Source of the DNA: Syntrophobacterales bacterium | Lineage (GTDB): Bacteria; Desulfobacterota; Syntrophia; Syntrophales; UBA5619 | Direction of reading: 5' to 3' | Assembly: GCA_019429105.1 (NCBI GenBank) | Contig: JAHYJE010000020.1 | Location: 1-62,179 of the forward strand | Length of the DNA: 62,179 bases | Shown: positions 2,124 to 58,125 of the stretch, piece after piece | How positions within the stretch are numbered: the first letter of the stretch is position 1 | How the letters are laid out: every line of letters starts with the position of its first letter | Position numbers and translations under genes: made by a program | The notes under the pieces: model-generated | What the model was told of the DNA's origin: nothing | Database searches by the model: none | The model's input: only the letters and a program-made list of their open reading frames with translations

Positions 2124-2124
2124 T

Positions 2125-3150
2125 ATGAAAAACGACGAACTAAAAAACGAAATAATCATTTATACGGGCGACAATGGTAAGTCGAGTGTTGAAGTACGCA
2201 TGCAGGGCGAAACGGTATGGCTCACCCAAAAACAACTCGCCGAGCTTTTTGATACGACGAAACAAAATATCAGCCAGCATATAAACAACATTCTCAAGGA
2301 CGGCGAATTACAGACAGATTCAGTTGTAAAGAAAATATTGACAACTGCCGATGACGGCAAAAAGTACCAAACGGATCATTACAATCTGGACATGATTATT
2401 TCTCTCGGGTATCGCATCAGCTCGCGCATCGCTACCAATTTTCGCATCTGGGCAACGGAACGACTGAAAGAATACATTGTTAAAGGCTTTACCATGGACG
2501 ACGAGCGGCTCAAAGGCACGGGCGGCGGGAATTACTGGAAGGAACTGCTCGACCGCATTCGCGATATCCGCAGCAGTGAAAAAGTGCTGTATCGGCAGGT
2601 GCTCGACCTCTACGCAACCAGCGCGGACTATGACCCAAACGCGAAAGAATCCACGCAGTTTTTCAAGATCGTGCAAAACAAACTGCACTACGCCGCGCAC
2701 GGACACACTGCCGCTGAGGTGATCGCCAAACGCGCCGACGCGGGTCAACCGTTCATGGGTCTGCTCACTTTTTCCGGCGGAGAAGTCACCCGGAAAGATA
2801 TCGGCATCGCCAAAAATTATCTCGCCGAAAATGAGCTGAAAAAGCTCAATAACATCGTTTCCGCCTATTTTGACCTCGCGGAAGTAAAAGCCATGAATCA
2901 GGACCCGATGCGCATGAAGGACTGGATCGCGCAACTCGACCGGCTGATACAGACTTTTGACGGCAAGCTGCTGGACAATGCCGGCGCTGTAAGCCACGAG
3001 CAGGCGCTGCAAAAAGCCGAAACCGAGTACAAGAAATATCAGTCCGCAGCCATCAGCGTTGTGGAACGGGACTATCTGGAAACCCTGAAGAAGGCGGAGA
3101 AAAAACTGAAGAAGGGCCGAAGAATCAAAAAGCCGGGTTCTGAGTCATGA
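2125..3150 (+). CDS. rhuM: RhuM-family protein inside the type I RM operon
   Basis: 341 residues from ATG 2125; an in-frame upstream start at 2107 would overlap hsdM. The N-terminal ~110 residues carry the RhuM winged-helix-like region (VWLTQKQLAELFDTTKQ segment, then GYRISSR and FRIWATERLKEYI). The C-terminal half is helical and, unlike the second RhuM protein of this window, shows no HxFxDGNxR Fic motif. RhuM was first named from a Salmonella pathogenicity island, but related proteins are common inside type I RM operons, where their role is unknown. It overlaps hsdS by 4 bases (ATGA), which implies coupled translation. A DNA-binding accessory or regulator of the RM system is inference. Confidence 0.85.
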   Translation: MKNDELKNEIIIYTGDNGKSSVEVRMQGETVWLTQKQLAELFDTTKQNISQHINNILKDGELQTDSVVKKILTTADDGKKYQTDHYNLDMIISLGYRISSRIATNFRIWATERLKEYIVKGFTMDDERLKGTGGGNYWKELLDRIRDIRSSEKVLYRQVLDLYATSADYDPNAKESTQFFKIVQNKLHYAAHGHTAAEVIAKRADAGQPFMGLLTFSGGEVTRKDIGIAKNYLAENELKKLNNIVSAYFDLAEVKAMNQDPMRMKDWIAQLDRLIQTFDGKLLDNAGAVSHEQALQKAETEYKKYQSAAISVVERDYLETLKKAEKKLKKGRRIKKPGSES

Positions 3151-4412: not shown

Positions 4413-7400
4413 CCGATACAATTTAGTCGCGGAAAATCCGCAAAGCACGGTGGTGGCGGAATACCAGGCCATTTACCGTACTTCCAAAACATACCAGAGC
4501 GAGGCGGAGCTGGAGCGCGCCTTTATTGCGCAGTTAGAGTCACAGGCGTATGAGTTTCTGCCCATTACTTCCGAAGCTGATCTGGTGCTCAACCTGCGTA
4601 AACAGCTTGAAAAGCTCAATGATTTCAGCTTTTCCGATACCGAATGGGAAAGGTTTTTTACCGGCGAGATCGCCAATCCCAACCAGAGTATCGCCGAAAA
4701 AACAGCCACTATTCAGGAAGATTACATCAAAAATCTAAAAAGAGATGACGGAACAGTTAAAAATGTCTATTTGCTCCGCAAAGACAAAATCCACGAAAAC
4801 AGTTTGCAGGCGATCAACCAATACACCACCGAAGAAGGGCAAAGAGCCAACCGCTACGATGTAACGGTGCTGGTCAACGGCCTGCCACTCGTGCATATTG
4901 AACTCAAGCGGCGCGGGGTGGCGATCCAGGAAGCGTTCAATCAGATCAACCGCTACCAGCGCGAGAGTTTTTGGGCTGGCTCCGGGCTCTTTGAGTATGT
5001 GCAGATATTTATTATCTCCAACGGCACGCACACCAAATACTACAGCAACACCACGCGCTGGGAACATATCAAAGAATCAAGCGAAGGCGCCGTCAAAAAA
5101 GGGAAACGCTCCAGCAACAGCTTTGAATTCACGAGCTGGTGGGCGGACGCGACCAATAGGCCTATTACCGACCTTGTAGATTTTGCCAAAACCTTTTTTG
5201 CCAAGCACGCGCTTCTCAATATCCTCACCCGCTACTGCGTGTTTACCACTGACAAACAGCTTTTAGCGATGCGGCCTTATCAGATCGTGGCGACCGAGAA
5301 AATACTAAGCAGAATTGACGTCAGCACTAATTATAAAAAACTCGGCGCCGTTGAGGCTGGTGGTTACATCTGGCACACTACCGGCTCGGGTAAAACCCTG
5401 ACCAGTTTCAAGACCGCCCAACTGGCGAGCAAATTGCCCTATGTTGATAAAGTGCTTTTTGTGGTTGACCGCAAAGACCTTGATTATCAGACCATGCGCG
5501 AATACGACAAATTTGAAAAAGGGGCGGCCAACAGCAATACCAGTACGGCGATTTTGAAACGCCAACTGGAAGACACAAACGCGCGCATTATTATCACCAC
5601 TATTCAAAAACTTGACGGGTTCATCGGCCGCAACAAAGGGCATACTATTTTCAATGGTCATATTGTGCTGATCTTTGATGAATGCCACCGCTCGCAGTTC
5701 GGTGAAATGCACTCCGCCATTACCAAGGCGTTTAAAAACTACCATCTCTTCGGGTTTACCGGCACGCCGATCTTTGCCGTGAATGCTTCTTCAGGCAGCC
5801 GTCCCGATTTTAAGACCACCGCGCAGGCTTTTGGCGATAAATTGCACATCTATACCATTGTGAATGCCATTGCCGATAAAAATGTTTTGCCGTTTAAAGT
5901 GGATTATATTTCCACCGTGCGCGAAGCAGAAGACATTGAAGATAAGAAAGTCCGCGACATCGACCGCGAAGCAGTGCTTGCCGCGCCGGAGCGTTTAGCA
6001 AATATTGTTCAATATATCCGCGACCATTTTGATCAGAAAACCAAACGGAACAGCTTTTACAAACTCAAAGACCGCAGACTGGCAGGGTTTAACTCCATTT
6101 TCGCCGTTTCTTCCATTGATGTGGCCAAAAAATACTACGCTGAATTCCAGAGACAGCTAACAGAGGCGCCGAGCGATAAAAAACTCAAAGTAGCGCTTAT
6201 TTACAGCTTTGGTGTAAACGAGGAAGAAATTGACGGTGTGACAGATGAAAACTCCGAAGACACCAGTGGATTGGACAAGAGCTCAAGGGATTTTCTTGAG
6301 AATGCCATCAAAGACTACAACGCCATGTTTGGGACTTCGTATGACACCTCTTCCGACAAATTTCAGAATTACTATAAAGATGTCAGCGAGCGGGTGAAAA
6401 ATCGTGAGGTTGATATTCTTCTGGTGGTCAATATGTTTTTGACCGGCTTTGACGCGACTACGCTCAATACCTTGTGGGTGGATAAAAACCTGCGTTTGCA
6501 TGGTTTGTTGCAGGCGTATTCGCGTACCAACCGCATCTTAAACACCGTCAAGACGTTCGGAAACATTGTTTGCTTCCGCAATCTGGAAAAAGCGACCAAT
6601 GAATCCATTGCCCTCTTTGGCGATAAGGAAGCCAGCGGGATTGTGCTGTTAAAATCGTATGACGAGTACTACAACGGCTACAAAGACGGCGACAAGGAAG
6701 TCCGTGGATATACCAGTATAGTCAAAGAGCTTTTGGCAAAATTTCCCGTTGACGAGCGAATTATAGGGGAACAAAATCAAAAGGATTTCATCAGGCTCTA
6801 CGGCGCGATTTTGCGTGTGAGAAATATCTTGGTTACTTTTGACGAATTTAACGGCAACGAAATTTTAACCGAGCGGGACATTCAGGATTATCACAGCGCC
6901 TACATTGACCTCTATAACGAGTTTCGCAAGACATGTGAAGGCGAGAAGGAAAACATCAACGATGATCTCGTGTTTGAAATGGAGCTCATTAAACAGATTG
7001 AGATCAACATTGATTATATTTTAGGGCTTGTTAAAAAATACCACGAAGACCACATCAAGAACCACGAACTGCTCATTGACATTAATAAAGCAATTGATTC
7101 AAGCGTTGAACTGCGCAACAAAAAAGACCTCATCAACCAGTTTATCGCTTCGCTTGATATCCATTCGGTCGTGGATGAAGACTGGCAGAAGTATGTGGAA
7201 AAGAAAAAAATAGAGGAACTGGACGAGATTATTAAGCAAGAAAATCTTGATCACGACGAAACCTATAAATTTGTGCGCAACGCGTTTCGTAACGGCAGTG
7301 TTGCAACCACGGGCACTGCTTTAGCCAAGGTTCTGCCGCCTGTATCACGCTTTTCTCCCGGAGGAGAGCGTTCCAAAAAACGCGAGAGCGTTTTGGACAA

Positions 7401-7452
7401 ATTGATACGCTTTTTTGAGCGATTTTTTGATATTTCCAGTGGGGTGTTGTAG
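4399..7452 (+). CDS. hsdR: Type I restriction endonuclease subunit HsdR
   Basis: 1017 residues from ATG 4399; a TTG seven codons upstream is less likely. HsdR is the translocating motor and nuclease. The N-terminal PD-(D/E)xK nuclease is visible as D154 and E168-x-K170. The SF2 helicase motor follows: Walker A TGSGKT near residues 328-333, motif II DECHRS (bases 5679-5696), TGTP (bases 5758-5769), and motif VI-like ...QAYSRTNRIL. A C-terminal helical domain should bind the methylase. Length and motifs are complete, so the system looks functional. The stop lies 7 bases before the R'' end of an attC-like site, so the whole RM operon sits immediately upstream of a cassette recombination site. 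Confidence 0.95.
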   Translation: MPTNSRYNLVAENPQSTVVAEYQAIYRTSKTYQSEAELERAFIAQLESQAYEFLPITSEADLVLNLRKQLEKLNDFSFSDTEWERFFTGEIANPNQSIAEKTATIQEDYIKNLKRDDGTVKNVYLLRKDKIHENSLQAINQYTTEEGQRANRYDVTVLVNGLPLVHIELKRRGVAIQEAFNQINRYQRESFWAGSGLFEYVQIFIISNGTHTKYYSNTTRWEHIKESSEGAVKKGKRSSNSFEFTSWWADATNRPITDLVDFAKTFFAKHALLNILTRYCVFTTDKQLLAMRPYQIVATEKILSRIDVSTNYKKLGAVEAGGYIWHTTGSGKTLTSFKTAQLASKLPYVDKVLFVVDRKDLDYQTMREYDKFEKGAANSNTSTAILKRQLEDTNARIIITTIQKLDGFIGRNKGHTIFNGHIVLIFDECHRSQFGEMHSAITKAFKNYHLFGFTGTPIFAVNASSGSRPDFKTTAQAFGDKLHIYTIVNAIADKNVLPFKVDYISTVREAEDIEDKKVRDIDREAVLAAPERLANIVQYIRDHFDQKTKRNSFYKLKDRRLAGFNSIFAVSSIDVAKKYYAEFQRQLTEAPSDKKLKVALIYSFGVNEEEIDGVTDENSEDTSGLDKSSRDFLENAIKDYNAMFGTSYDTSSDKFQNYYKDVSERVKNREVDILLVVNMFLTGFDATTLNTLWVDKNLRLHGLLQAYSRTNRILNTVKTFGNIVCFRNLEKATNESIALFGDKEASGIVLLKSYDEYYNGYKDGDKEVRGYTSIVKELLAKFPVDERIIGEQNQKDFIRLYGAILRVRNILVTFDEFNGNEILTERDIQDYHSAYIDLYNEFRKTCEGEKENINDDLVFEMELIKQIEINIDYILGLVKKYHEDHIKNHELLIDINKAIDSSVELRNKKDLINQFIASLDIHSVVDEDWQKYVEKKKIEELDEIIKQENLDHDETYKFVRNAFRNGSVATTGTALAKVLPPVSRFSPGGERSKKRESVLDKLIRFFERFFDISSGVL

Positions 7453-32890: not shown

Positions 32891-33235
32891 TCAGAAGTAT
32901 AATATCCGGTATTTAAGCACGATCACAAAAAGGACGAAGGCCAAGGCGATCATGACATAAAACAGGGTTTTGTGGAGGGCGGTATCGGCGCCCAGATCGA
33001 GAAAAATCACCCGCAATCCCAAACACGCGTGGAGAAACACTAAAAATGCCATGATGGCCTGCAGGCTCACCATATAGGGATAGACCAGATGAAGCGCGAT
33101 CAGAATAACGATCAAAAGCGCAGAAAATCTCTGTATAAGCCATGCCCACATCCCTACCTGCGTTGCACGCCATTCGGAGAGACTCAGCGAATCCCTTCTG
33201 CGTATGATACGGTCGGCATTTTTTGTATCTTCCAT
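32891..33235 (-). CDS. sdhD: Succinate dehydrogenase membrane anchor (SdhC/SdhD-like)
   Basis: 114 residues from ATG 33235 behind a GGGGGAAAAG ribosome binding site. Three membrane helices (about 28-52, 57-78, 88-110). H49 and H69 are candidates for haem b ligands and the W-x-x-QR-FSALL stretch (about 32-41) resembles the quinone-site helix of SdhC/SdhD. Only this one anchor is present, as the last gene of the block; a second anchor is absent nearby, which raises the question of whether the cytochrome b next door takes part in anchoring. Confidence 0.75.
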   Translation of the reverse strand: MEDTKNADRIIRRRDSLSLSEWRATQVGMWAWLIQRFSALLIVILIALHLVYPYMVSLQAIMAFLVFLHACLGLRVIFLDLGADTALHKTLFYVMIALAFVLFVIVLKYRILYF

Positions 33236-33308: not shown

Positions 33309-34865
33309 TTATTTGTAGTTTGCCGCGAAATACCCGGCAAGCTGGGCGATCTCTTCCCGGGAGGTTTTCGCAAGCGGGCTTTTCTCGTGCAATTCCTCTT
33401 TGTTTTTCTCAAGCAAAGCGACTATTTGCTGCGTCCTGCCACTGACCTCCCGGTCTGTTATCCCCTGTTCGTTGCGATAGATAATATGGGCGCTCCGAAA
33501 CAGGGACGGTTCTATCCGCTTCGCCTTGTAATGCGTAAAATCGATGCTGCGCAGGTAGCTCACCAGCGCTTCCCGATCGGCGTCATCGAGATGATATTTT
33601 ACCATTTTCCCCTTTTTGCCCAGGGTTTTGTCGGGATCCTTCAGCAGATTCCGCAAGAATTCCTGGTCTCTTTTCGTGCCGACCTTCCACAGATCGGGCG
33701 CATTTTTCATGCCCACCCCTTCGATGCTGTGGCAGCTGTAGCAAACATTTTTTTCAAAAAGCGCCAGTCCGGCCAGCTCCTTGACGGTAAGCGGACGATC
33801 CGGGGCAAAAAATTTACCAGGCAGAGGCGAGGAAACCTCGGCGATAAGCGTCAGGTACAGGATAAGAATGACGGCGCCAAAGCCCGTGGCAATGGCAAGC
33901 GGTCTCTTTGTGTAGGCGCGCTCCGGGTTCTTGTCGTAGAAGGGCAGAAAGAGCAGAACGGCGATCCCGAACAAGGGAAAAACCGTTAAGGCAATAACAA
34001 TCGATTTACCCTCAAACATCTTCAGTATTTCATAGCCGAAGAGGATAAACCACTCCGGTTTGGGGACGGAATTGATCGACGCCAGCGGTTGCGCCGCGGG
34101 GTCTGCCGGAACGCCGACATAGCGGGCCAGTATGAACAAGGCCGCCATCATCAGCAAAGAGGCGATCGCGTCCTTGGCGAGTTGGTAGGGGAAAAATGGC
34201 TGCGTACCGACCTCGATCCCGGCGCGGGGGGGAGGTCCCTTCTCGCCGTGGATCTGAATGAGCGCCACATGGTTGGCGATAACGGCCAGAATCGCCATCG
34301 GCAGCAGAATCATGTGCAAGGAGCCGTAGCGGGTCAGCGTCAGGCCTCCGACCTGAATGCCTCCGACCATGTTGGCCAGCCAGCCGCCGATCAGCGGCAG
34401 GAATTCAAAAACCTTCGCCAGGATGGTGGCCGCCCAGTAAGAACGGTCTGACCACGGCAGGATATAGCCGGTGAGCGCCATCAGGGCGGTCAGAAAGAAC
34501 AGACACAGGCCGGTTACCCAGATAAACTGGTTCGGTTTTTTATATCCGCCGTGGAAAAAAGCCCGGAGCAGATGGATAAACACCGTCAACACCATGAAGT
34601 GGGAGGCCCAGTGGTGGACGCCCCTGATCAGCCAGCCCAGCGTCAGTTCATTCTGGATGTACTCCACGCTGCCGTATGCCTCCTTAAGCGTAGGGACGTA
34701 GTTGCCGGCCAGCAGGAACCCCGTTATAACCTGGATGATGAAGAGAAAAAAGCTGAGAGAGCCCAGCGTGTACCACCAGCCAATATCCTTGGAGAGGGGT
34801 TTGTAAAAGAATTTCGTCTTCAGCAGTTCCCACGCCCCCATTTTGCTTCCCAGAGTCTGCTCCAT
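33309..34865 (-). CDS. Cytochrome b (b6-like) with fused subunit-IV region and cytochrome c domain
   Basis: 518 residues. Residues 1-210 are the four-helix haem-binding core; His 84, 98, 184 and 199 have the 14 and 15 residue spacing of cytochrome b6 (mitochondrial-type b has 14 and 14). The position of the haem-ci cysteine of b6f (YCLG) reads YTLG here. Residues ~225-345 are the C-terminal helices with the quinol-oxidation motif as PEWF (270-273). A c-type haem motif C375-Y-S-C-H379 lies in a domain fused behind them, followed by a ~75-residue tail of unknown role. Starts 2 bases after the SdhB-Rieske stop. Oxidises menaquinol and passes electrons to its own haem c. Confidence 0.9.
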   Translation of the reverse strand: MEQTLGSKMGAWELLKTKFFYKPLSKDIGWWYTLGSLSFFLFIIQVITGFLLAGNYVPTLKEAYGSVEYIQNELTLGWLIRGVHHWASHFMVLTVFIHLLRAFFHGGYKKPNQFIWVTGLCLFFLTALMALTGYILPWSDRSYWAATILAKVFEFLPLIGGWLANMVGGIQVGGLTLTRYGSLHMILLPMAILAVIANHVALIQIHGEKGPPPRAGIEVGTQPFFPYQLAKDAIASLLMMAALFILARYVGVPADPAAQPLASINSVPKPEWFILFGYEILKMFEGKSIVIALTVFPLFGIAVLLFLPFYDKNPERAYTKRPLAIATGFGAVILILYLTLIAEVSSPLPGKFFAPDRPLTVKELAGLALFEKNVCYSCHSIEGVGMKNAPDLWKVGTKRDQEFLRNLLKDPDKTLGKKGKMVKYHLDDADREALVSYLRSIDFTHYKAKRIEPSLFRSAHIIYRNEQGITDREVSGRTQQIVALLEKNKEELHEKSPLAKTSREEIAQLAGYFAANYK

Positions 34866-34866
34866 A

Positions 34867-36114
34867 TTATGCGACCTCCTCCTGGAGATAGAGTATCCCC
34901 CCTTCGACCTTGACTTTAAGATGGGCCAGTGGCGCCGGGGGAGGTCCTAATGTGACTTTCCCTTCCTTATTGAAAGCGCCGCCGTGGCAGGGGCATAAAA
35001 ACATGCGAATGGATTCGTCCCAGTAGCAGATGCAGCCGAGATGCGTGCAGGTGGGATCCATCGCGGAGAGGGCGCCTGCTTCATCTTTGACGAGATATGC
35101 CCTTTTCGGGTAGGAAACAAGCTTGCCCCGTTCCCATTTCTGTCTGTTGTAGGCTATTTCCAGCGGAACGTCCGGCTGCAAATTTGGCATCTCGCCCCAC
35201 TTTATCCAGCCCGACTCCCAACCCCGCGCCGGTTCGCTGAACAGGGGCGGAAACATGAGCAGAAATCCGGCGCCGATCGCCCCGGCGCCACCCCAAAATG
35301 CCGTTTTCATGAAGTTTCTTCTCGCAGAAACGGCCTCCGGGAACGCCACAGGCAACGGCTTCGTCTCTTCATCGACCAGCTCTTCTCGCTGGGGCGAGGT
35401 GAAACGATACTTGACCGCTGTCCTCTTCAGGTGGTGGATCGCACCGGTGGGCGAGAGCTGTTTCGGGCAGGCCTCCATGCAGTTGAATTCGTCATGGCAG
35501 CGCCAGATCCCATGCTCGTCGGAGAGATTGACAATGCGCTCGCTGCCCAGCTTGTCTCTTGTATCCCGGAGTTTGCCGTCCGCGGCCAGCATGCCGAAAG
35601 GACCGGGAAATTTCTGATCCCATCCAGCCATGGTGCAGGCCGCGTAACAGGCGCCGCACATGATGCACTCCACAAGGCCGTCAACGCTCTTGCGGTCATC
35701 GGGAGACTGGTAAAATTCCTTTTCGGGAGGGATCTCCTTGGGAATCAGGAAGGGTTCGACAAGTGTGTATTTTTCGTAAAAATCGGTCATATCCACGACC
35801 AGATCCTTGATCAGCGGCAAATTGGCGAGGGGTTCGACCTTGATCCGGGGCGATTTTATGTTTTCGACGAGGGTCCGGCAGGCCAGGGCAAACTTGTCGT
35901 TGATCTTCATCCCGCACGACCCGCAAACCGCCGCCCGGCATGAGGAACGGTAGGCCAAGCTGCCGTCGTAGTTTTCCAGGATGTAATAGAGAGATTCCAG
36001 AACCGTCAGCCCTTTGACAACGGGAACTTCATAGGTCTCATAATGAGGTTTTTTGTCTGCCTGAGGATCATAGCGCAGTATCTCAAGAACCGCCTTTTCG
36101 CCTATTTGAGCCAT
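34867..36114 (-). CDS. sdhB: SdhB-Rieske fusion: succinate dehydrogenase iron-sulfur subunit joined to a Rieske protein
   Basis: 415 residues in one unbroken frame, from ATG 36114. Residues 1-240 are a complete SdhB: [2Fe-2S] Cys 59/64/67/79, then Cys 150/153/156/160 and 206/212/216 for the other two clusters. A ~20-residue linker leads to RRNFMK (265-270, Tat-like), a membrane helix (about 273-291) and a Rieske domain (about 330-412) with CTHLGC (356-361) and CPCHGG (374-379). Normal SdhB ends near 240 residues and normal Rieske proteins are separate, so this is a true fusion at sequence level. Topology fits: SdhB inside, Rieske outside. It sits between sdhA and the cytochrome b gene. Confidence 0.93.
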   Translation of the reverse strand: MAQIGEKAVLEILRYDPQADKKPHYETYEVPVVKGLTVLESLYYILENYDGSLAYRSSCRAAVCGSCGMKINDKFALACRTLVENIKSPRIKVEPLANLPLIKDLVVDMTDFYEKYTLVEPFLIPKEIPPEKEFYQSPDDRKSVDGLVECIMCGACYAACTMAGWDQKFPGPFGMLAADGKLRDTRDKLGSERIVNLSDEHGIWRCHDEFNCMEACPKQLSPTGAIHHLKRTAVKYRFTSPQREELVDEETKPLPVAFPEAVSARRNFMKTAFWGGAGAIGAGFLLMFPPLFSEPARGWESGWIKWGEMPNLQPDVPLEIAYNRQKWERGKLVSYPKRAYLVKDEAGALSAMDPTCTHLGCICYWDESIRMFLCPCHGGAFNKEGKVTLGPPPAPLAHLKVKVEGGILYLQEEVA

Positions 36115-36115
36115 C

Positions 36116-37828
36116 TTAATATTTCCTTTCTTCCGGTTGCCATTTCGTGATGGTGACAGGTTTATAGGAAAGCTCCGGGCCGTCTTCCGTAAATCTGGCA
36201 ATGGTGTGTTTCTGCCAATTTGCATCATCGCGGTTCGGAAAATCCGTTCGGGAGTGAGCTCCCCGACTTTCTTCCCGGGCAAGGGCGCCAAGTGCAATCA
36301 CCTCCGCCAGATCTATGCCGGCCGCAATCTCCAGGGTCCATGTCCGATCAAAATTGAAGACGCTGCCCTTGGTGGCGGAGCGGATATTGCGGAACCGCTT
36401 CTTGACCGCCCTGATCTCCTGCAGGGCAGACTCCAAATCAGCCTTGTTTCTGAAGATCTGCACCTTGTTGTCAACGATGTCATGCACCTCGTCCCTGATT
36501 TTGTAAGGGTCTTCCGAACCGCCGCGATTGTAAAGTTCCTCCAGTTCCTTTTCCTTCTTCCGGAGCGCATCCTTCACCAGGCTGTAATCCTTGGGCGCCC
36601 CCTTGCCCTGGATCGCCAGGGAGGCGTTCCGACCGGCGATTTCTCCAAAAACAATGGTTTCGAGCAGGGAGTTGCCGCCGAGACGATTGGCCCCATGAAC
36701 GCTGACACAGGCGCATTCCCCCGCCGCGTAGAACCCCTCCACCTCCGTCTTGCAGGTGTGATCGCAATCGATCCCGCCCATCGAATAATGCTGGGCGGGG
36801 CGGATGGGGATCGGCTCCGTGACCGGGTCAATTCCCAGAAAATCCACGCAGATGGCCTTTATTCCCGGCAGCCTCTCGTCGATTTTCGCCCGGCCGAGGT
36901 GCCGGATATCGAGATAGACATATTTTTCGCCCTTGATGCCGCGCCCAGCGATCAGCTCGGTTTCTATCGAACGGGAAACCATATCCCGCGGCGCCAGTTC
37001 AATCGCCTTCGGGGCATAGCGCTTCATGAAACGCTCCCCGTCATTATTGATCAGATATCCTCCCTCGCCCCGGGCGCCTTCGGTCATCAGGATATGTTTG
37101 CCGGTAATGCAGGTAGGATGAAACTGAACGAATTCCATGTCCTTGATTGGCACTCCCGCCCAGTACGGCATCGTTACGCCCAGGGCGGTGGAGCTGTAGG
37201 AATTGGTGGTGCGCCCATACACCCGGCCCGATCCCCCGGTTCCAAAAATGACCGCATGGCCAAGAAACGCCTCCAACTTGCCGGTACGCATGTTGAAAGC
37301 GGTCAAACCGTGGCAGACGTTATCTTCGATGATCAAACCGACGGCATAGTACTCGTCGTAGAGCTGCACCCTGTCTTTGAGGGTCAGATATTTCTGGTAA
37401 ACGGCGTGCAGCAGAAAGTGGCCGGTTCTGTCGGCCCCATAGCATGTTCTGGGGAAAGCCGCCCCGCCGAAAGGCCGCTGGGCGATGGAGCCATCGGCAA
37501 AGCGGGAAAAGGGAACGCCCCAGTGGTCCATCTCGCGGACCGTCTTCGGGGCCTGTTCGGTCATGATCAGAATTGCATCCTGATCGCCGAGAAAATCCCC
37601 GCCCTTGGCTGTATCATAGCCGTGACGTTCGGGACTGTCGTCCTTTCCATCCGGATGATTGCACATGGCGGCATTGATTCCTCCCTGCGCCTCTCCGGAA
37701 TGGGAACGGATGGGATAAATCTTGGATATCCAGCCGACATCCACCCCCCTGAGGGCCGCCTCGTCAACTGCCCTCGTTCCCGCCAACCCTCCTCCGACAA
37801 CAATCAACTCGTGGGCATGAACATCCAT
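36116..37828 (-). CDS. sdhA: Succinate dehydrogenase/fumarate reductase flavoprotein
   Basis: 570 residues from ATG 37828 (GGAGG upstream). FAD-binding VVGGGLAGTRA (about 11-21), the covalent-flavin His in RSHSGEAQGGINAA (about 41-54), substrate motifs HPTCI and TEGARGEGG (about 235-257), active-site Arg region RD-VSR and HYSMGGI (about 344-350), GANRLGGNSL (about 384-393). Length and motifs are complete. Catalyses succinate to fumarate or the reverse. One base separates it from the sdhB-Rieske gene; it comes after sucD in the leftward block. Confidence 0.96.
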   Translation of the reverse strand: MDVHAHELIVVGGGLAGTRAVDEAALRGVDVGWISKIYPIRSHSGEAQGGINAAMCNHPDGKDDSPERHGYDTAKGGDFLGDQDAILIMTEQAPKTVREMDHWGVPFSRFADGSIAQRPFGGAAFPRTCYGADRTGHFLLHAVYQKYLTLKDRVQLYDEYYAVGLIIEDNVCHGLTAFNMRTGKLEAFLGHAVIFGTGGSGRVYGRTTNSYSSTALGVTMPYWAGVPIKDMEFVQFHPTCITGKHILMTEGARGEGGYLINNDGERFMKRYAPKAIELAPRDMVSRSIETELIAGRGIKGEKYVYLDIRHLGRAKIDERLPGIKAICVDFLGIDPVTEPIPIRPAQHYSMGGIDCDHTCKTEVEGFYAAGECACVSVHGANRLGGNSLLETIVFGEIAGRNASLAIQGKGAPKDYSLVKDALRKKEKELEELYNRGGSEDPYKIRDEVHDIVDNKVQIFRNKADLESALQEIRAVKKRFRNIRSATKGSVFNFDRTWTLEIAAGIDLAEVIALGALAREESRGAHSRTDFPNRDDANWQKHTIARFTEDGPELSYKPVTITKWQPEERKY

Positions 37829-37923
37829 CAATGGTTCCTCCCTCAGTATTTTTCCGGTTTGTTGTTTTTGCGGTCTAAAGCATTTTTTCCCTTCTTGTCA
37901 AGGGAAAAACGGAGTTAACATTG

Positions 37924-38799
37924 CTATTTTTTTTTGAGAATCTCCGCCATTCGCTGACCCAGCTCGGCGGGATTTTTCTCCACGATAACGCCGGCATTTT
38001 CGAGGGCCTTGAATTTATCGGCGGCTGTTCCTTTTCCGCCGGAGATGATCGCCCCGGCATGCCCCATCCGCCGTCCCGGCGGGGCGGTTCTGCCGGCAAT
38101 AAAGGAAACGACCGGTTTTTTCACCTGCGAGGTGATGAACTCCGCCGCCTCTTCTTCCGCCGTGCCACCGATCTCGCCAATCATGACAATAGCCTCTGTT
38201 TGCGGATCATGTTCGAACAGGGACAGGATATCCGTAAAGCCTGAGCCGACAATCGGGTCTCCGCCTATTCCTACCGAGGTTGACTGGCCTATCCCCAGAT
38301 TCGTCAACTGCCAGATCACCTCGTAGGTGAGGGTACCGCTGCGCGAGACAACTCCGACGTTTCCCCGTTTATGGATAAAGTTCGGCATGAAGCCGACCTT
38401 GCCTACGCCCGGGGTTGTGATTCCCGGGCAGTTCGGGCCGATCATTCTGGCCCCGGACCCCTTCAGCGCCTGTTTTACTCGAACCATCTCGAGGACGGGA
38501 ATTCCCTCCGTCATGCAGACTATAAGCTCAATACCCGCTTCAATAGCCTCGAAGACGGCATCCGGGGTAAAGGCCGCCGGCGTGTAGATTGCGGAAACAT
38601 TGGCTCCATGCCCTTTAACGGCCTCCGCCACGCACTCATAAACGGGAATGCCGTCCAATTCAGCACCCCCTTTGCCCGGAGTAACGCCGGCAACAATCCT
38701 CGTTCCCATCTTCACCGCTTCCCGGGTGTGAAAGCTCCCTTCGGAGCCGGTGATCCCCTGAATTACAATCCGTGACTTTTCATCCAGCAATATGGCCAT
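37924..38799 (-). CDS. sucD: Succinyl-CoA synthetase, alpha subunit
   Basis: 291 residues, full length. CoA-binding Rossmann fold with [14 protein letters not shown] (about 13-26), [14 protein letters not shown] (about 32-45), IGPNCPG (about 124-130) and the phospho-His region [14 protein letters not shown] with the conserved GHAGAI (about 249-254). Together with SucC it makes ATP or GTP from succinyl-CoA. Lies between sucC and sdhA, so product succinate feeds the next enzyme. Confidence 0.96.
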
Positions 38800-38874: not shown

Positions 38875-40038
38875 TTACGGCACCAGAGCGACAGCCTGCC
38901 GGGCCGCCTCGTAAAGACCTTCTGCCACCGTGAACCGAAGCCCCGATTCAGCGAGCATCTTTCTGCCTTCGGCAACATTCGTCCCCTGGAGCCTCACCAC
39001 CAGCGGCAGCTTAAGCTCGATATTGCGAGCGGCCTGGATCAGCCCGGCGGAAACCCTGTCGCACCGAAGGATGCCGCCAAAGATGTTTACGAGGATGCAC
39101 TTTACATGGGGATCGGCGGTCAGGATTGTGAAGGCCTTTTGAATCTGCTCCGGCGATGCGCCACCGCCGACGTCGAGGAAGTTGGCCGGTTCCCCACCCG
39201 CCATCTTGATCATGTCCATCGTCGTCATCGCAAGCCCCGCCCCATTGACCATGCAGCCGACGTTACCCTCTAATTTTATATAGTTTACCGAGGCATTTTT
39301 TGCCGCTACCTCCAGGGGGGCCTCTTCGTCCTGATCCCGCAGCCCCTTTATTTCCGGATGGCGGTAGAGTCCGTCATCGTCGAAATCAAGCTTGGCATCG
39401 AGGGCGAGGAGCCTGCCGTCTGCGATAATGGCCAGCGGGTTTATCTCTAAAAGGGAACAATCCTTGTCCAAAAACAGCCGGTAGAGGTTGCGGACAATCT
39501 CGGTAAATGTTTGGCGCTGTTCGGCGTTTAAATGAAGAGCCGCGGCCAGTTTGCGCGCCTGGAAGGGGCTGAATCCCACAACCGGGTGGAGTGCGCAGGA
39601 AACGATCTTCTCGGGAGAGTCGGCAGCCACCTTTTCTATCTCCATGCCGCCCGCCTCCGACGCCATCAAGACAACGCATTCCCTTTTTTGCGAGCGATCC
39701 ACCAGCAGGCTCAGGTATAATTCCCTTTGCACCTCCGACGCCTCCTCCACCAGTACGCGGCGCACCTTCTTCCCTTCCGGGCCGGTCTGATGGGTGACAA
39801 GCTGCATCCCGATGATCTTTTCGGAGACGGCAAACGCCTCTTCCGGTGAAGCAGCGAGTCTGACCCCGCCCCCCTTGCCCCTACCCCCGGAGTGAATCTG
39901 CGCCTTTATTACGACTTTTCCCGATAATTCCCCAGCCGCGCGGCGTGCCTCTTCCGGGGTGGCAGCCGAGCCGCCGCGGGAAACGGGAATCCCGTATTCC
40001 CGAAGGAGTTCCTTTGCCTGATACTCGTGGATCTTCAT
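38875..40038 (-). CDS. sucC: Succinyl-CoA synthetase, beta subunit
   Basis: 387 residues, normal length. ATP-grasp domain: MKIHEYQAKELLREYGIPVSRG at the N-terminus, VIKAQIHSGGRGKGGGV (about 43-59), LEINPL (about 199-204), NGAGLAMTTMDMI (about 263-275) and the C-terminal GGASPEQIQKAF and VNIFGGILRCD. Ribosome binding site CTGGAGGCAC. First gene of the suc-sdh block; a TATAAT-like -10 (about 40051-40056, minus strand) is the only promoter hint. Confidence 0.96.
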   Translation of the reverse strand: MKIHEYQAKELLREYGIPVSRGGSAATPEEARRAAGELSGKVVIKAQIHSGGRGKGGGVRLAASPEEAFAVSEKIIGMQLVTHQTGPEGKKVRRVLVEEASEVQRELYLSLLVDRSQKRECVVLMASEAGGMEIEKVAADSPEKIVSCALHPVVGFSPFQARKLAAALHLNAEQRQTFTEIVRNLYRLFLDKDCSLLEINPLAIIADGRLLALDAKLDFDDDGLYRHPEIKGLRDQDEEAPLEVAAKNASVNYIKLEGNVGCMVNGAGLAMTTMDMIKMAGGEPANFLDVGGGASPEQIQKAFTILTADPHVKCILVNIFGGILRCDRVSAGLIQAARNIELKLPLVVRLQGTNVAEGRKMLAESGLRFTVAEGLYEAARQAVALVP

Positions 40039-40304: not shown

Positions 40305-40847
40305 TTACCGGAATTCCTCGCCGAGTTTAAGTCCAAGATCCAAGGCCTGCTGATTCATCGCCAAAAAACCTGGCGGTATCTGTTTTTCCAGCACCTTGAT
40401 GATGGATTCAGGACGCACCAGGCGCGTAAGCCCTATAAGCGTGCCGAGCATAAAGATGTTAAAGACGATGGGTTTGCCGATCTTTTCCATAACCGTATCG
40501 TACATGGGCAGATTGAGCTGCCGCGCCTCCACCTTCTTCTCCGTTTTTACGTAGCGGGCATCGGTAAGAAGCAGCCCCCCCGGACGGATTATCGATGAGA
40601 AACCGGCGTATGCCTGCTGGGTAAGACAAACCAGAACATTGGGCTGGGTCACCTTCGGAAAGTAGATCGGCGAATCGGCGATGATGACGTCGGAGCGGGT
40701 GGCGCCTCCCCGCGCTTCCGGGCCGTAAGATTGAGCCTGCACCGCAATCAGGTTTTCATAAAGCACGGCAGCTTCCGCCAGAATGATCGCCGCGGTGATC
40801 ACCCCCTGCCCGCCGGAACCGGAAAAAACCATTCTGCATCGTTCCAT
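40305..40847 (-). CDS. korC: 2-oxoglutarate:ferredoxin oxidoreductase, gamma subunit
   Basis: 180 residues. Signature GSGGQGVITAAIILAEAA (about 10-27), QSYGPEARGGATRSDVIIADSPIYFP (about 40-65) and NIFMLGTLIGLTRLV (about 129-143), as in the gamma chain of 2-oxoacid:acceptor oxidoreductases. Last gene of korDABC, two bases after korB. The complex links 2-oxoglutarate and succinyl-CoA with ferredoxin, in either direction. Confidence 0.93.
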   Translation of the reverse strand: MERCRMVFSGSGGQGVITAAIILAEAAVLYENLIAVQAQSYGPEARGGATRSDVIIADSPIYFPKVTQPNVLVCLTQQAYAGFSSIIRPGGLLLTDARYVKTEKKVEARQLNLPMYDTVMEKIGKPIVFNIFMLGTLIGLTRLVRPESIIKVLEKQIPPGFLAMNQQALDLGLKLGEEFR

Positions 40848-40849
40848 AA

Positions 40850-41653
40850 TTACTTACCCTTTGTCGCCCGTTCGATGATGTTGTGATATTCATCACAGTA
40901 CTCAGGCGCCTCTCTGTTGACGAAAATTCCCCGTTCGATCAGCGAGGAATCCGCCAGCTTTTCCCGGGACCCGATGGGGGTCGTGCGTGTTTTGAACCTC
41001 TCCATCATCTCGGAGGCGCTGCCCTCTTTGTTCTTTCTGCCAAAGTACGTGGGACATTGGCTCATGACTTCAACGACCGAGAATCCCTTGTGGAGAATTG
41101 CCGCTTCCAGCACATCAGTCAATTGCTTTATATGGTAGGTTGTGGAACGGGCCACAAAGGACGCCCCGGACGCAACGGCCATAGCCACGACATCGAAATC
41201 CGGATCGATGTTCATATAGGGAGCGGTTGTCGCGTAGGTGCCGTATCCGGACAGGGGCGAGTACTGCCCGCCGGTCATTCCGTAAACACGATTGTTCATG
41301 ACGATAGCCGTCATGTCGATGTTTCTGCGACAGGCATGGATGAAATGATTGCCCCCGATGGAAAGGGCATCCCCATCTCCCATCGGCACCAGCAGCGTCA
41401 GCTCCGGACGGCTCATCTTGACGCCGGCGGCAAACGCCAGCGCCCGGCCGTGGATTGTGTGCAGCGTATGAAAATCGAGATATCCCGAGATGCGCGAGGA
41501 ACAGCCAATTCCCGATACCATCACGATGTCGTTTTTTTTGAGTCCGATATTCTCAACGGCATGAAGCAGGCCGTTCAAAATAATGCCATGCCCGCATCCC
41601 GGACACCAGAGGTGGGGGAAGAACCGTTCGCGGATGTACTCCCTTGTGCTCAT
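40850..41653 (-). CDS. korB: 2-oxoglutarate:ferredoxin oxidoreductase, beta subunit (TPP-binding)
   Basis: 267 residues. CPGCGHG (about 18-24), GIGCSSR (about 48-54), HGRALAFAAGVKMSRPELTLLVPMGDGDALSIGGNHFIHACRRNID (thiamine-diphosphate and Mg motif GDGD, about 92-95) and the NNRVYGMTGGQ segment (about 120-130). The active-site Cys pattern and length fit KorB. One base separates it from korA. Confidence 0.95.
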   Translation of the reverse strand: MSTREYIRERFFPHLWCPGCGHGIILNGLLHAVENIGLKKNDIVMVSGIGCSSRISGYLDFHTLHTIHGRALAFAAGVKMSRPELTLLVPMGDGDALSIGGNHFIHACRRNIDMTAIVMNNRVYGMTGGQYSPLSGYGTYATTAPYMNIDPDFDVVAMAVASGASFVARSTTYHIKQLTDVLEAAILHKGFSVVEVMSQCPTYFGRKNKEGSASEMMERFKTRTTPIGSREKLADSSLIERGIFVNREAPEYCDEYHNIIERATKGK

Positions 41654-41654
41654 G

Positions 41655-42803
41655 CTACACTCCTCTTCCCTGGATTATTCGGAGAATATTCAAGATCGAA
41701 GTCGGGGTAATCAGGGTTCCGTCCACCTGGTTGGCCAGAGAGACCTTATCCGGCCTTTCCACCGCCGACTTGACGGACTGGAGAACCTGCCCCATGTTCA
41801 TCTCCACGACCACCACATATCGGGCATTTTGCGCCTTTTCCCTTACCAGCGCGGCGGGAAACGGCCACAGGGTCTGAAGTTCCAGCAAGCCAAGCCTCTC
41901 TCCGCGTTGACGGCGGTTCATAACCACGTGCAATGCGGAACGGGCCGATGAGCCATAGGAAATCAAGAGCGTCTCCGCGTCTTCGGTATAGTATTCACGG
42001 TACCTTGTCAGATCATCGACATGATGTTCGATTTTGTCCGTCAGGTGGCGCATCAATCCGTAAACTACCTTGGGGTCTTCGGAGGGAAAGCCCCACATGT
42101 CGTGAAAAAGCCCGGTGACATTATAGCGATGCACGCCCCCGAAATCGGACATAGGGAGCCTGCCGTCCTCGCGGGGGAGATAGGGGTGGTAGTCAACCCC
42201 GTCAGGGAGGGACGTCTTCAATCTTTCCACAAGCGGCAACTTGCCGGGAGGGGGAATCTCGAGACGCTCCCGCATATGCCCGATCACTTCGTCGAACAGC
42301 AGAATAACCGGGGTGCGATAAGTTTCCGCAAAGTTGAACGCGTCAACTGTAATCGAAAAGACGTCCTGATGGTTGGAGGCTGTCATGGCTACAATGGCGT
42401 GATCCCCGTGGATGCCCCAACGGGCCTGATTGACGTCTCCCTGACTGAGTTTGGTCGGTAATCCTGTCGAAGGACCACCACGCTGGACATCGACTATCAC
42501 GCAGGGAATCTCCGCCATGACCGCGAACCCCAATGCCTCCTGCATCAGTGAAAACCCGGGGCCGCTTGTCGCCGTCATCGCCTTGTTGCCGGTCAGGGAC
42601 GCGCCGATAATCGCGCAGATCGAGGCGATTTCGTCCTCCATCTGCATGAAGATCCCGCATTTTTGCGGCAGACGCGCCGACAGCAGTTCCGCGATCTCGG
42701 TGGAGGGGGTGATCGGGTAACCGGCAAAAAAACCAAGTCCGGCGTAAAGGGCGCCCTCAACACAAGCCTCATTGCCCTGCACAAATTTCACTTGTCCGCC
42801 CAT
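41655..42803 (-). CDS. korA: 2-oxoglutarate:ferredoxin oxidoreductase, alpha subunit
   Basis: 382 residues from ATG 42803 behind AGGAG; a longer frame to 42830 overlaps korD. GNEACVEGALYAGLGFFAGYPITPSTEIAE (about 9-38), MEDEIASICAIIGASLTGNKAMTATSGPGFSLM (about 56-88), and PTKLSQGDV (about 118-126) are typical of KorA. The separate alpha and gamma chains show the four-subunit version of the enzyme. One base from korD. Confidence 0.95.
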   Translation of the reverse strand: MGGQVKFVQGNEACVEGALYAGLGFFAGYPITPSTEIAELLSARLPQKCGIFMQMEDEIASICAIIGASLTGNKAMTATSGPGFSLMQEALGFAVMAEIPCVIVDVQRGGPSTGLPTKLSQGDVNQARWGIHGDHAIVAMTASNHQDVFSITVDAFNFAETYRTPVILLFDEVIGHMRERLEIPPPGKLPLVERLKTSLPDGVDYHPYLPREDGRLPMSDFGGVHRYNVTGLFHDMWGFPSEDPKVVYGLMRHLTDKIEHHVDDLTRYREYYTEDAETLLISYGSSARSALHVVMNRRQRGERLGLLELQTLWPFPAALVREKAQNARYVVVVEMNMGQVLQSVKSAVERPDKVSLANQVDGTLITPTSILNILRIIQGRGV

Positions 42804-42804
42804 T

Positions 42805-43014
42805 TCACTCCTGCTCCGTTTCGACCACAATTGCCAGATCCGGGCACCTCAGCTCGCAAAGCTTGCAAGCTATGCAATCCGTTGGTCTCGCGGCAATCGC
42901 TTTTTCCTGGTCATCCAGTTCCAGAACCTTTTTGGGGCAAAAATGGACGCAGATTCCACATCCCTTGCACCAGTTCCGGTTGATCACATGACGTTTAAGT
43001 TTTGGTTTCGCCAT
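42805..43014 (-). CDS. korD: Ferredoxin-like delta subunit of 2-oxoglutarate oxidoreductase
   Basis: 69 residues from ATG 43014 behind AAGG. Two [4Fe-4S] motifs: C-K-G-C-G-I-C-x3-CP (about 16-27) and C-I-A-C-K-L-C-x3-CP (about 47-58). It feeds electrons between the catalytic clusters and external ferredoxin. First gene of the operon, about 130 bases from its promoter. Confidence 0.93.
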   Translation of the reverse strand: MAKPKLKRHVINRNWCKGCGICVHFCPKKVLELDDQEKAIAARPTDCIACKLCELRCPDLAIVVETEQE

Positions 43015-54783: not shown

Positions 54784-55686
54784 TCAAAGTAATTCGGCAT
54801 TGGTCAGTATAGCGACAATGTCTTTTCCAAGATCGCCTCGTAGTTTATGCCCGTCGAACAGTTCTAAAAATACCATACCACAGTTGTGGTCAAAAGATGG
54901 CTGAAGTGCTTTGCCCTGGAAATACCTCCCCTGAATATTCGCTTGGTTGCCGACTCTCGGATAAAGAAGAAAGCTTCGGTTTGCACCGAATTGGACGTTG
55001 TACGCGTGCATCTGCTGCAGATCGGCATCGCCTGGTTTACCATCGCCTGGAATTTTCCATTTGGTATCCATGACGACCCGCTCGTAATTGGAACCGGTAT
55101 CGATCTGGGCAATGATGTCGGGACGGATGGCCTTCTGCATATTATCGGCAGACCAGAATGGGCGGGATACTTGAGCCTTGAACGAGATCCGACGGAACGT
55201 CTGTTTCATTTCTGCCCGCTTAAGCTGAACGTAGACAAAATGTTCGAACAGGGTATTCATATCGAACAGGATCGCCAGGACATCCTCCCTGCCGCCACAA
55301 ACGTCGGGATTATAGTTCAGTATGATCAAGCGGGCGAGTTGCTGTCTCAACCTGGCATCCGACATCGATGCTACCCGGATGAATCCTGATTGACGGAGCA
55401 TTTCGATCAGAGCGCCCTGCCACTTCTTTTTCTGGCTGGACGAGTCAGGACCCTTGTCTGCCTTGGGCAGAATCTCTATGGTCAGGTTTCCAACCTGGAT
55501 GACGCCAACATAGTTTCGGAAATGGATGCGATCGAATCCGACCGCAAAGAACCGATTGCCATGCCGTTCGTTGTACTGCACCAAACGCTTGAAGTGGTCA
55601 TGGGTAAACGACCCCCTCACTGGCAGTGTTGTGTGTTCGAACACCTGGATGACATTACTCATATACTGCACGGAAATCCTCGTCAT
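54784..55686 (-). pseudogene. mcrC: McrC-like nuclease subunit with internal deletion
   Basis: 300 residues, against about 400-450 for intact McrC. The C-terminal PD-(D/E)xK nuclease is present: RPD190 then VVMD207-x-K209, with NMQKAIRPDIIAQ before it. Residues ~90-117 (MLRQSGFIRVASMSDARLRQQ) join directly to LARLIILNYNPDVCGGREDV; the helical middle of the family, about 100-130 residues, is missing while the frame is kept. The start overlaps mcrB by 4 bases (ATGA). Activity doubtful. Confidence 0.7.
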
Positions 55687-56417
55687 TCAGGGTCATGGGA
55701 TCTTGTAACGCGTAAACGCGTCGTTGCACCCCACTTGAGAGAGTCCTGAGTCATAAAGTAGAAGCTCTGCAAATCGATCATGTCCCGCGGTGTCCATTCC
55801 GCCAGCTCCCCACGCAAGGTCTTCATGATCGTCAGAACCCTTCGATACTCCTCGACCGTTAAGAACTTGCCGTCTCCGAGATGCTTTTCACCGATCGACT
55901 TCAGGAACCCATCAAAAATCGCCGGCTTAATGAAGATATAATTTTGCGGACTCCAGAAGCAGATGAAAAAGGTTGGAATAGCTTTACTCATGTTGGCAGG
56001 GCAGTTGTTTCCTTTGAGCCACGTCAGGAGATTTTGCATCGGCTCATCGATCTCCCCGCCAATACTAACGGAATTGAGCAGGGCATGAAGCCGATTCTTG
56101 AATTCGCGGGACTTTGCCTCCGTATTCAATATACTGTAAAGTACGTCTTGATCCCTCCATCCAATGAAGTTCTGCCTTTCTTTAAGCCCGGGCAGCTTGT
56201 CAGAAAATAGTTTCTTTAGAAGTTTCTTGAATTCTTCGGTTGATAGTGAGTCGGAACTTGATGAGATCCAGGCATCGAACAACTGGTGCAGATACGATGA
56301 TGTTACCCGTTTGTATGTGTCTTCAGAATCAAGGTACTCCTGACTGCTGTCGCTGAAGTTTTTAAAGGAAGGGAAGGATTGGAGAAAGACCTGTTTCAGT
56401 TCCGAAATATTTTCCAT
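55683..56417 (-). pseudogene. mcrB: McrB-like GTPase subunit without its AAA+ motor
   Basis: 244 residues. The N-terminal part resembles the DNA-binding domain of McrB relatives: FFICFWSPQNYIFIKPAIFDGFLK, YRRVLTIMKTLRGELAEWTPRDMIDLQSFYF. Then the protein ends after a short out-of-family tail (MTQDSLKWGATTRLRVTRSHDPE). The entire GTP-binding AAA+ domain (about 300-400 residues) is absent. Read in another frame the tail gives AFTRYKIP, possibly the original end. Confidence 0.7.
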
Positions 56418-56451
56418 GTAATGTCCCTCTATATTAGGATGTGCAGGCCAC

Positions 56452-56721
56452 CTACGAGAATACCCTTGGCTTCAGGAGCACGAGCCTTGACTTCTCCCTA
56501 TCTCTGAATCCCATGAGCGACCTCGGCCATTTTCTAACATCGAACAGGGTATTTACCTCGTAGGCGTTCGTCCCTGATACACCGACCTTGAATGTTCCTG
56601 ATCCGACGCGAAGAATGATGGCAAGCAGATCGGCATCCGTCAGCCGTTCCGGGCCTTCGGCAAAGAGTCGTTCGCGCGGACGTTCGTTTGTTGGCCAGCT
56701 CTTGATTCGTTCAGAACTCAC
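56452..56721 (-). pseudogene. radC: RadC family, N-terminal fragment
   Basis: 89 residues. [38 protein letters not shown] (about 6-43) is the conserved RadC start. After GVSGTNA (about residue 53) the sequence no longer follows RadC; the JAB metalloprotease core (H-x-H-x10-D) is missing. The last 36 residues are of unknown origin. Truncated by rearrangement. Confidence 0.75.
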
Positions 56722-56924
56722 GTTACAGCCCTATCGTTAATGTCCAGCTATTCGTGCACCAGTCCAAATGCACGGTCGAGATCAAAGCGTTCAAAATCCG
56801 ATGATCGCAGCACCGGTTTCAATTCCGTGTTGATCCGGGTTTTAAGTTTATTTTTTCGCACCGATGATCTCTATCCTCGACCTTGGGTTTCAAGTTGTGG
56901 GGCTTAATTTCACTATCTCCACCA

Positions 56925-57935
56925 TCATTTCCTACCCGTAATCAAATTGACTACGACTTTCGTCAGAACGTCTTTCTCTTCCGGCTTACTTTCTGCAATC
57001 ATCAGCGTGATGGCGACCAGAGCATTGTCGGCAATGTGCCGGGAGCCGTCGGCGCAATAAAGGATACCGTTCTTCTCCATGAGCCAGAGAAACAAGGCGG
57101 CAATGCGCTTGTTGCCATCCACGAAACTATGGTTCTTTACCAGAAAATAAAGAAGATGCGCGTCCTTTTCTTCAAGGCTCCGATAGAGGTATCTCCCGTT
57201 GAACGTCTGCATCACCGCCCCCAGCGAACCAGGAAGGCTGTCGTCTTTCTCTCTGCCAAAGAGATCTGATCCTCCGAATTTGCAGCGCAACTGCTCGATG
57301 ACGATTAAGGCCTCCTGATAATCAATACCTTTTGCCGCTGCCTTCTTCAAACGGGCAAGTGAAACCCGCTGGTGATCGTAATCGTCCAATAAGTCAAGGG
57401 CATAAGAATAATCCGTCACCACTTGGAGAAGCGCCCTGGCCTGGTCTGATGTCACATCATACCGGTCCAAGACCTGACCGACCAGCTTAAGGGACTGACG
57501 TAGTTCCTTTAAGCGGCGCTGGTTAACAGAATACCCCTTCAGGATATGGTCGCGCAAGGTCTGCGTCGCCCAGATGCGGAACTGCGTGCCGCGCTTGGAG
57601 TTGACGCGATAGCCCACGGAGAGGATGGCATCGAGGTTGAAGTTTTCGACCTGACGTTCGACGATGCGCCTGCCTTCATCTTGAACTGTTGCAAAAAATG
57701 CAACTGTTGACCCGCTGTCAAGTTCGCCCTCGCGGAACACATTGTTTAAGTGACGGGAAATAACGGATTTATCGCGATCGAAGAGGGATGCTATCTGGTT
57801 TAAATTCAACCATAATGTGTCCTTTTCCAGCCGGACATCGAGACTTATCGTGCCGTCCGGGTTGTTGTAAAGCACTACGGCGCCGGTGCTATGTTTGCTG
57901 AGCGGTTCACTATGGATGCCGGATTGCTTCTTCAT
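56925..57935 (-). CDS. RhuM-Fic/DOC fusion protein
   Basis: 336 residues from ATG 57935 with GGAGGG upstream. The first ~120 residues are a RhuM domain (TLWLNLNQIASLFDRDKSVIS ... GYRVNSKRGTQFRIWATQTLRDHILKGY); the C-terminal ~150 residues a Fic/DOC fold with HSFVDGNKRIAA (about 268-279), which matches the Fic motif H-x-F-x-D-G-N-x-R. Fic enzymes transfer AMP or other groups to proteins. Related to the rhuM in the hsd operon, which lacks this motif. A toxin or host-modifying role is inferred. Confidence 0.85.
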   Translation of the reverse strand: MKKQSGIHSEPLSKHSTGAVVLYNNPDGTISLDVRLEKDTLWLNLNQIASLFDRDKSVISRHLNNVFREGELDSGSTVAFFATVQDEGRRIVERQVENFNLDAILSVGYRVNSKRGTQFRIWATQTLRDHILKGYSVNQRRLKELRQSLKLVGQVLDRYDVTSDQARALLQVVTDYSYALDLLDDYDHQRVSLARLKKAAAKGIDYQEALIVIEQLRCKFGGSDLFGREKDDSLPGSLGAVMQTFNGRYLYRSLEEKDAHLLYFLVKNHSFVDGNKRIAALFLWLMEKNGILYCADGSRHIADNALVAITLMIAESKPEEKDVLTKVVVNLITGRK

Positions 57936-58125
57936 CACAACCCTCCAGTGCGGTTGATCATTTCAGTGCGGGATGGATCCATTGACAATCAAACCCCATT
58001 CTTTATTTACACTGTCCTTTGCACACTTCCAATCTGAAATCAATGAGGTCGCACCAATGGGTATCGTATCGACTTGTATTTGCAGTGAATTTAAAATATA
58101 ATTGAACAAACAGGTATTTACATGT

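Follow-up and report, generated by a model that had tools for sequence, protein, structure and literature searches.

A single gene joins succinate dehydrogenase SdhB to a Rieske iron-sulfur protein in a Syntrophobacterales bacterium and its relatives

It has long been asked whether respiratory complexes are coupled in function or merely draw on a common quinone pool. In mitochondria, complexes II and III are physically associated in supercomplexes, such as Perkinsus CII2CIII2CIV2 (PDB 9fq7) and that of Tetrahymena (PDB 8gym). Succinate oxidation with menaquinone is thermodynamically unfavourable and is thought to need the membrane potential in syntrophs (PMC10308238). With respect to assembly, the anchor of normal Rieske proteins is inserted by the Tat system (PMC7317946), and in the polytopic Rieske proteins of actinobacteria (PMC5449189, PMC7317946) the Tat motif and the Tat-dependent helix are internal instead of N-terminal, the low hydrophobicity of this last helix being relevant for the process (PMC5449189). 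A gene that brings these subjects together was found in the window, by which we mean the whole stretch of 62,179 nucleotides that was analysed.

Domain structure of the fused protein

The sdhB::Rieske gene is encoded on the minus strand, from an ATG at 36114 to a stop codon at 34867-34869, and its 415 codons specify a single polypeptide that combines a complete SdhB and a complete Rieske protein. The coordinates and single frame of the initial annotation were borne out, the strand being minus, and every motif it had listed was found at the residue it gave. The plus strand across 34867-36114 is interrupted by stops, and the minus-strand frame is open for 476 codons if counted from an upstream TTG; the MAQIGE start is kept in both close relatives (loci L042 and L043). 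Annotation pipelines would probably name only one half of such a protein.

Residues 1-240 (35395..36114, minus strand) form the SdhB domain. As detected with Pfam, Fer2_3 covers residues 10-113 (E 4e-33) and Fer4_8 residues 149-219 (E 1e-8), and the scores were above the cut-offs of the NCBIfam SdhB model PRK05950 (270.8 bits vs 228) and of TIGR00384 (246 vs 88 bits). In sequence and fold searches of the PDB, residues 11–232 matched E. coli SdhB (E 6e-53), with 40% identity and a TMt of 0.87 to 1nek_B. The 11 cluster cysteines, which are the [2Fe-2S] ligands C59/64/67/79 and the [4Fe-4S] and [3Fe-4S] ligands C150/153/156/160 and C206/212/216, are all present and are invariant across 10 aligned fusions.

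The SdhB domain is followed by a cytoplasmic linker (residues 241-264; 35323..35394, minus strand), of 24 residues in the window gene and of 27-56 residues across 10 fusions by one common measure. As its length and sequence vary among fusions and its model confidence is low, with pLDDT below 50 at residues 249-259 in AlphaFold2, the linker seems to act as a tether and not as an interface. An internal start yielding a free Rieske protein was considered and rejected: the candidate codons of the window gene, TTG254 and GTG256, are not kept in L042 and L043, three fusions (L043, L105 and L108) have no candidate start at all in the stretch that separates the SdhB domain proper from the RR motif, and no internal start codon is conserved in the linker among 10 fusions.

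A twin-arginine motif, RRNFMK (residues 265-270; 35305..35322, minus strand), comes next, whose RR pair is invariant in the 10 aligned fusions and appears as RR.FL in nine further full-length ones. It lies within a predicted signal-anchor transmembrane helix (residues 261-287; 35254..35334, minus strand) that is only weakly hydrophobic (best 19-residue Kyte-Doolittle mean of 1.35), as expected of a Tat anchor. In PDB sequence and fold searches, cyanobacterial PetC of the b6f complex aligned from residue 264, so that the alignment covers both the RR pair and the helix. The motif, the helix and this alignment identify a twin-arginine signal-anchor before the Rieske head, with a predicted dependence on Tat.

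The Rieske [2Fe-2S] head occupies residues 300-415 plus the stop (34867..35217, minus strand), contains the boxes CTHLGC (356-361) and CPCHGG (374-379), and was recognized by PF00355 over residues 338-397 (E 1.1e-9; 38.6 bits vs a cut-off of 20.3) and by a fold match to 8hn2_A. It scored below the equivalog cut-offs for bc1 (TIGR01416, 48.6 vs 97.4) and b6f (NF010001, 60.8 vs 154; NF045928, 60.7 vs 250), and on these scores it is best described as a bc-family member that is neither a bc1 nor a b6f equivalog. In Rieske proteins of ubiquinol systems, a Ser and a Tyr raise the redox potential. The box found here, CPCHGGAF, does not have these residues, which would fit a menaquinol system of low potential.

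The AlphaFold2 model (mean pLDDT 83) showed the SdhB fold, the low-confidence linker, the 261–287 helix and the Rieske head. The same domain order was obtained, with lower confidence, when a distant fusion from clade 2 was modelled.

Operon and membrane topology

The gene belongs to a tightly packed minus-strand operon with the order korA-like–korB–korG–sucC–sucD–sdhA–sdhB::Rieske–cytb·cytc–sdhC. The subunits of a 2-oxoacid:ferredoxin oxidoreductase (40305..42830, minus strand) are a KorA-like protein with POR_N and PFOR_II domains (41655-42830), a putative KorB (40850-41653) and a putative KorG (40305-40847), the last two named from sequence and placed in a synteny conserved with relatives. 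Succinyl-CoA ligase beta (SucC, 38875..40038, minus strand) and alpha (SucD, 37924..38799, minus strand) were assigned by Pfam and NCBIfam models. The SdhA flavoprotein (36116..37831, minus strand) reached 737 bits with TIGR01812 (cut-off 567); the sdhA stop is 1 nt from the fusion ATG, and the SdhA N-terminus, MMDVHAHELIVVGGG, carries no export signal.

Beginning 1 nt past the fusion stop codon, the next gene (33309..34865, minus strand) encodes, according to Pfam and alignment, a cytochrome b of fused b6/petD type with a C-terminal mono-haem cytochrome c domain. Its four haem-ligand histidines (H84, H98, H184 and H199) are kept, with b6f-like spacings of 13 and 14 residues, and it has a PEWY-like Qo motif (PEWF at 270) and, in the cytochrome c domain, the haem motif CYSCH at 375. 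This C-terminal cytochrome c domain was observed in all the fused operons read and in the unfused locus L114, and is absent from unfused Syntrophales-type operons. The fused Rieske is the sole Rieske of its genome, which is around 100% complete, and is therefore the only candidate partner for the neighbouring cytochrome b.

The operon ends in SdhC, a 114-aa, three-helix complex II anchor (32891..33235, minus strand; PF01127, 34.3 bits vs a cut-off of 25.8), in which H49, H69, R36 and S38 are invariant in the alignment; R36 and S38 resemble quinone-site residues of E. coli SdhC. Neither two anchor subunits nor one five-helix anchor were found, this being the sole Sdh_cyt gene of the same genome, and a diverged SdhD may be encoded elsewhere. 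A single SdhC of about 114 aa with three helices, with no SdhD found, was seen in both fused and unfused operons (homologues in L042, L043, L104-L109 and L114). The complex II anchor could possibly be an SdhC homodimer, or receive a contribution from the bc half.

With respect to the rest of the genome, TatC is encoded, matches to multihaem cytochromes are few and weak, and no heme-copper oxidase was found, which fits an anaerobe. Two other gene groups of the window contain RhuM-family genes: a type I restriction-modification operon, hsdM-rhuM-hsdS-hsdR (564-7452, plus strand), with a PF13310 gene inside, and the interval 54784-57938 (minus strand), which has an McrBC component (PF10117, 54784-55686) and a second RhuM-family gene (56925-57938).

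The topology proposed in the initial annotation, with SdhB inside, Rieske outside and one helix between them, is supported by conservation, by the presence of TatC, by the lack of an export signal in SdhA and by the models. SdhB is well supported as cytoplasmic because SdhA carries no export signal, the RR pair is located on the cytoplasmic side of the single helix, as it is in ordinary Rieske proteins, and the Rieske head is placed in the periplasm because it has to reach the Qo site in cytochrome b as well as the fused cytochrome c. This arrangement raises the possibility of a Tat-inserted anchor behind a folded, cofactor-loaded cytoplasmic domain. We found no precedent for a Tat anchor behind a cofactor-bearing cytoplasmic domain of 260 residues, and this counts against the tethered complex proposed below.

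Distribution and origin of the fusion

To the question of whether relatives carry the same fusion, a search proposed in the initial annotation, the answer was positive. The scan comprised 155 genomes class-wide, a phylum-wide sample of 395, and one family at 288 species, and a full-length, stop-free fusion was detected in 20 genomes (G000, G001, G003, G009, G013, G399, G427, G464, G180, G382, G402, G567, G568, G569, G581, G632, G649, G664, G702 and G798) from five family codes (f1, f36, f47, f60 and f88) of one phylum; judged by its size, f60 may be Desulfovibrionaceae. G013 was counted despite a run of N within its Rieske part, and G563, whose fusion is cut by a contig end, was left out. Complete sequences all retain the SdhB cysteine motifs, the twin arginine and the two Rieske boxes, and have the fusion flanked by SdhA, SdhC and cytochrome b·c. 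A plasmid collection contained no fusion: in none of 260 records was 80% of the query covered at a single place.

Two homologues from related metagenome-assembled genomes (G001/L042 and G003/L043) have the same 415-residue fusion, with 81% and 79% identity and no indels. Between these two and the window gene, dN/dS was around 0.07–0.09 overall; the SdhB and Rieske halves each gave low values and the linker a higher one. These values are rough as dS is near saturation; they indicate purifying selection on both halves.

These data bear directly on the concern that a missing stop or a frameshift had merged two adjacent genes. One missed stop would in principle suffice, as the unfused neighbours are adjacent in relatives. 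However, the indel-free fusions of L042 and L043 and those of 17 further genomes exclude it: the fusion recurs in 20 genomes, two of which (G427 and G581) are single contigs, without internal stops and with linkers that vary yet are always in frame. The probability of a sequencing or assembly artefact is thus practically negligible, and we consider it refuted by this recurrence. It had also been anticipated that relatives whose sdhB and Rieske genes are separate at this locus, together with a fusion unique to this assembly, would speak against the fusion; such relatives do exist, but the uniqueness does not hold.

Two types of fused operon were distinguished. In the window and in G001, G003 and G399 the order is sdhA–fusion–cytbc–sdhC (type 1), and in the remaining sixteen carriers it is sdhA–sdhC–fusion–cytbc (type 2). 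The operon of G427 is adjoined by a second flavoprotein (FAD_binding_2/Succ_DH_flav_C) and a Fer4_20 pyridine-nucleotide oxidoreductase-like gene (L104:4499-7368, minus strand). Many relatives (L046-L058, L110-L112) show the unfused order sdhC–sdhA–sdhB–Rieske–cytb, several of them at the same korBG–sucCD locus, and a different unfused order, Rieske-cytb.cytc-sdhA-sdhC-sdhB, was found in G210 (L114:2803-7561, plus strand). As the relatives with the first of these orders hold both genes adjacent in a II-III operon, the association of SdhB and Rieske predates or parallels the fusion. In these operons the Rieske gene overlaps sdhB, directly follows it, or continues in the same frame past a single stop (as in L110), so that a single mutation could fuse them; such neighbours illustrate a possible route to the fused gene.

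The phylogenies do not all point to a single fusion event. In the Rieske tree the domains of the fused proteins group as a single clade apart from all the unfused ones sampled (100/99), and the cytochrome b tree is compatible with a single fused clade (77/58), but in the SdhB tree a single fused clade was rejected (p-AU 0.0029), with the unfused L113 and L114 sitting on the type 2 branch, and the SdhA of type 1 groups with unfused Syntrophales-type SdhA. There may have been two fusion origins beside related bc modules, or one origin after which SdhA and SdhB would have been exchanged or split.

Proposed function and comparison with known systems

The best explanation for these data, to which we assign a probability of about 0.7, is that one chain links complexes II and III covalently, which would generate a tethered succinate dehydrogenase–cytochrome bc complex. 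In this complex, the fusion with SdhA and SdhC would make up the succinate dehydrogenase, and the same fusion with the cytochrome b-cytochrome c protein would make up the bc complex, the flexible linker and the single Tat-type signal-anchor helix joining cytoplasmic SdhB to the periplasmic Rieske head. Electrons from succinate would pass through the FAD of SdhA and the three SdhB clusters to a quinone, presumably menaquinone, at the SdhC site; menaquinol would then reach the Qo site close by in cytochrome b and reduce the Rieske head, from which the fused cytochrome c would deliver the electrons to periplasmic cytochromes. The tether would hold the uphill succinate-to-menaquinone step beside the bc step that draws off menaquinol, and would fix the stoichiometry of the complexes. 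We infer a stable joint complex, quinone hand-over or channelling, and the direction of electron flow. A more specific version, that of a covalent succinate:cytochrome c oxidoreductase with local menaquinone exchange, a Q-cycle pull on the uphill step and an internal anchor built by Tat after a folded domain, is tentative and falls somewhat short of even odds.

Two other readings were weighed against it. The chain could be synthesized jointly as a polyprotein whose linker is cut by a protease, in such a manner that the halves join separate complexes. The cytochrome b-c1 precursor encoded by fbcH of Bradyrhizobium, which is cut in two, is a precedent within complex III, and the poor conservation and low model confidence of the linker speak for this reading; yet no conserved cleavage motif was found in the linker of the aligned fusions (n=10), and in unfused relatives the two genes are already coupled by lying close together or overlapping, so the fusion adds little expression coupling, and we regard cleavage as unlikely. 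No likelier is a role of the fused complex chiefly in fumarate reduction, with electrons supplied by menaquinol or, by way of a reversed cytochrome b, by cytochrome c. Menaquinol-to-fumarate is the favourable direction, the sequence models do not tell SdhA from FrdA, and in G382 a fumarase gene (PF05681; L108:11622-12563, plus strand) is located just downstream of the fusion operon. Against this, the sucCD and 2-oxoacid oxidoreductase genes nearby fit an oxidative route from 2-oxoglutarate through succinate to fumarate, even if the reverse is possible, and a Rieske/Qo half normally withdraws electrons from quinol and would thus compete with the reduction of fumarate. A periplasmic 8-methylmenaquinol:fumarate reductase was rejected on the scores of SdhB (NF042952, 107.9 vs 600) and SdhA (NF042982, 491 vs 1100) and the lack of a signal in SdhA.

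The tethered complex would be a covalent II–III link of natural origin, conserved in 20 genomes and accompanied by unfused sister operons that can serve as controls, so that a single mutation in the linker would suffice to test the linkage. It is also relevant to the way in which anaerobes that use menaquinone handle unfavourable succinate oxidation.

The initial annotation knew of no described SdhB–Rieske fusion, and this is consistent with the open full-text literature, in which none was found, most subscription papers being outside this scope; in the available parts of papers on Geobacter, Caldithrix and cable bacteria, Rieske and cytochrome b proteins are described without such a fusion. 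Compared with SdhB and FrdB proteins such as E. coli SdhB (PDB 1nek), the fused protein has the full fold, the three clusters and SdhA and SdhC neighbours, but adds the C-terminal linker, the membrane helix and the Rieske head, and its operon has one small SdhC gene and no SdhD. With PetC and QcrA, the Rieske proteins of b6f and bc complexes, it shares the twin-arginine signal-anchor, the [2Fe-2S] head and a cytochrome b partner in the same operon, whereas its Rieske part follows a 240-residue SdhB instead of the protein start and does not reach the equivalog cut-offs of bc1 and b6f. In the polytopic actinobacterial proteins, Sec-inserted helices precede the Tat helix, in contrast to the folded cytoplasmic iron-sulfur domain that precedes it here. 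The unfused II-III operons of the same phylum contain the same genes, but with separate adjacent or overlapping sdhB and Rieske genes, sdhC before sdhA, and a cytochrome b without the cytochrome c domain. Finally, the mitochondrial supercomplexes are non-covalent, whereas here one peptide chain would take part in both complexes of an assembly deduced from the genes. Each half is an ordinary member of its family, and what would be new is that a subunit of complex II is covalently joined to one of complex III.
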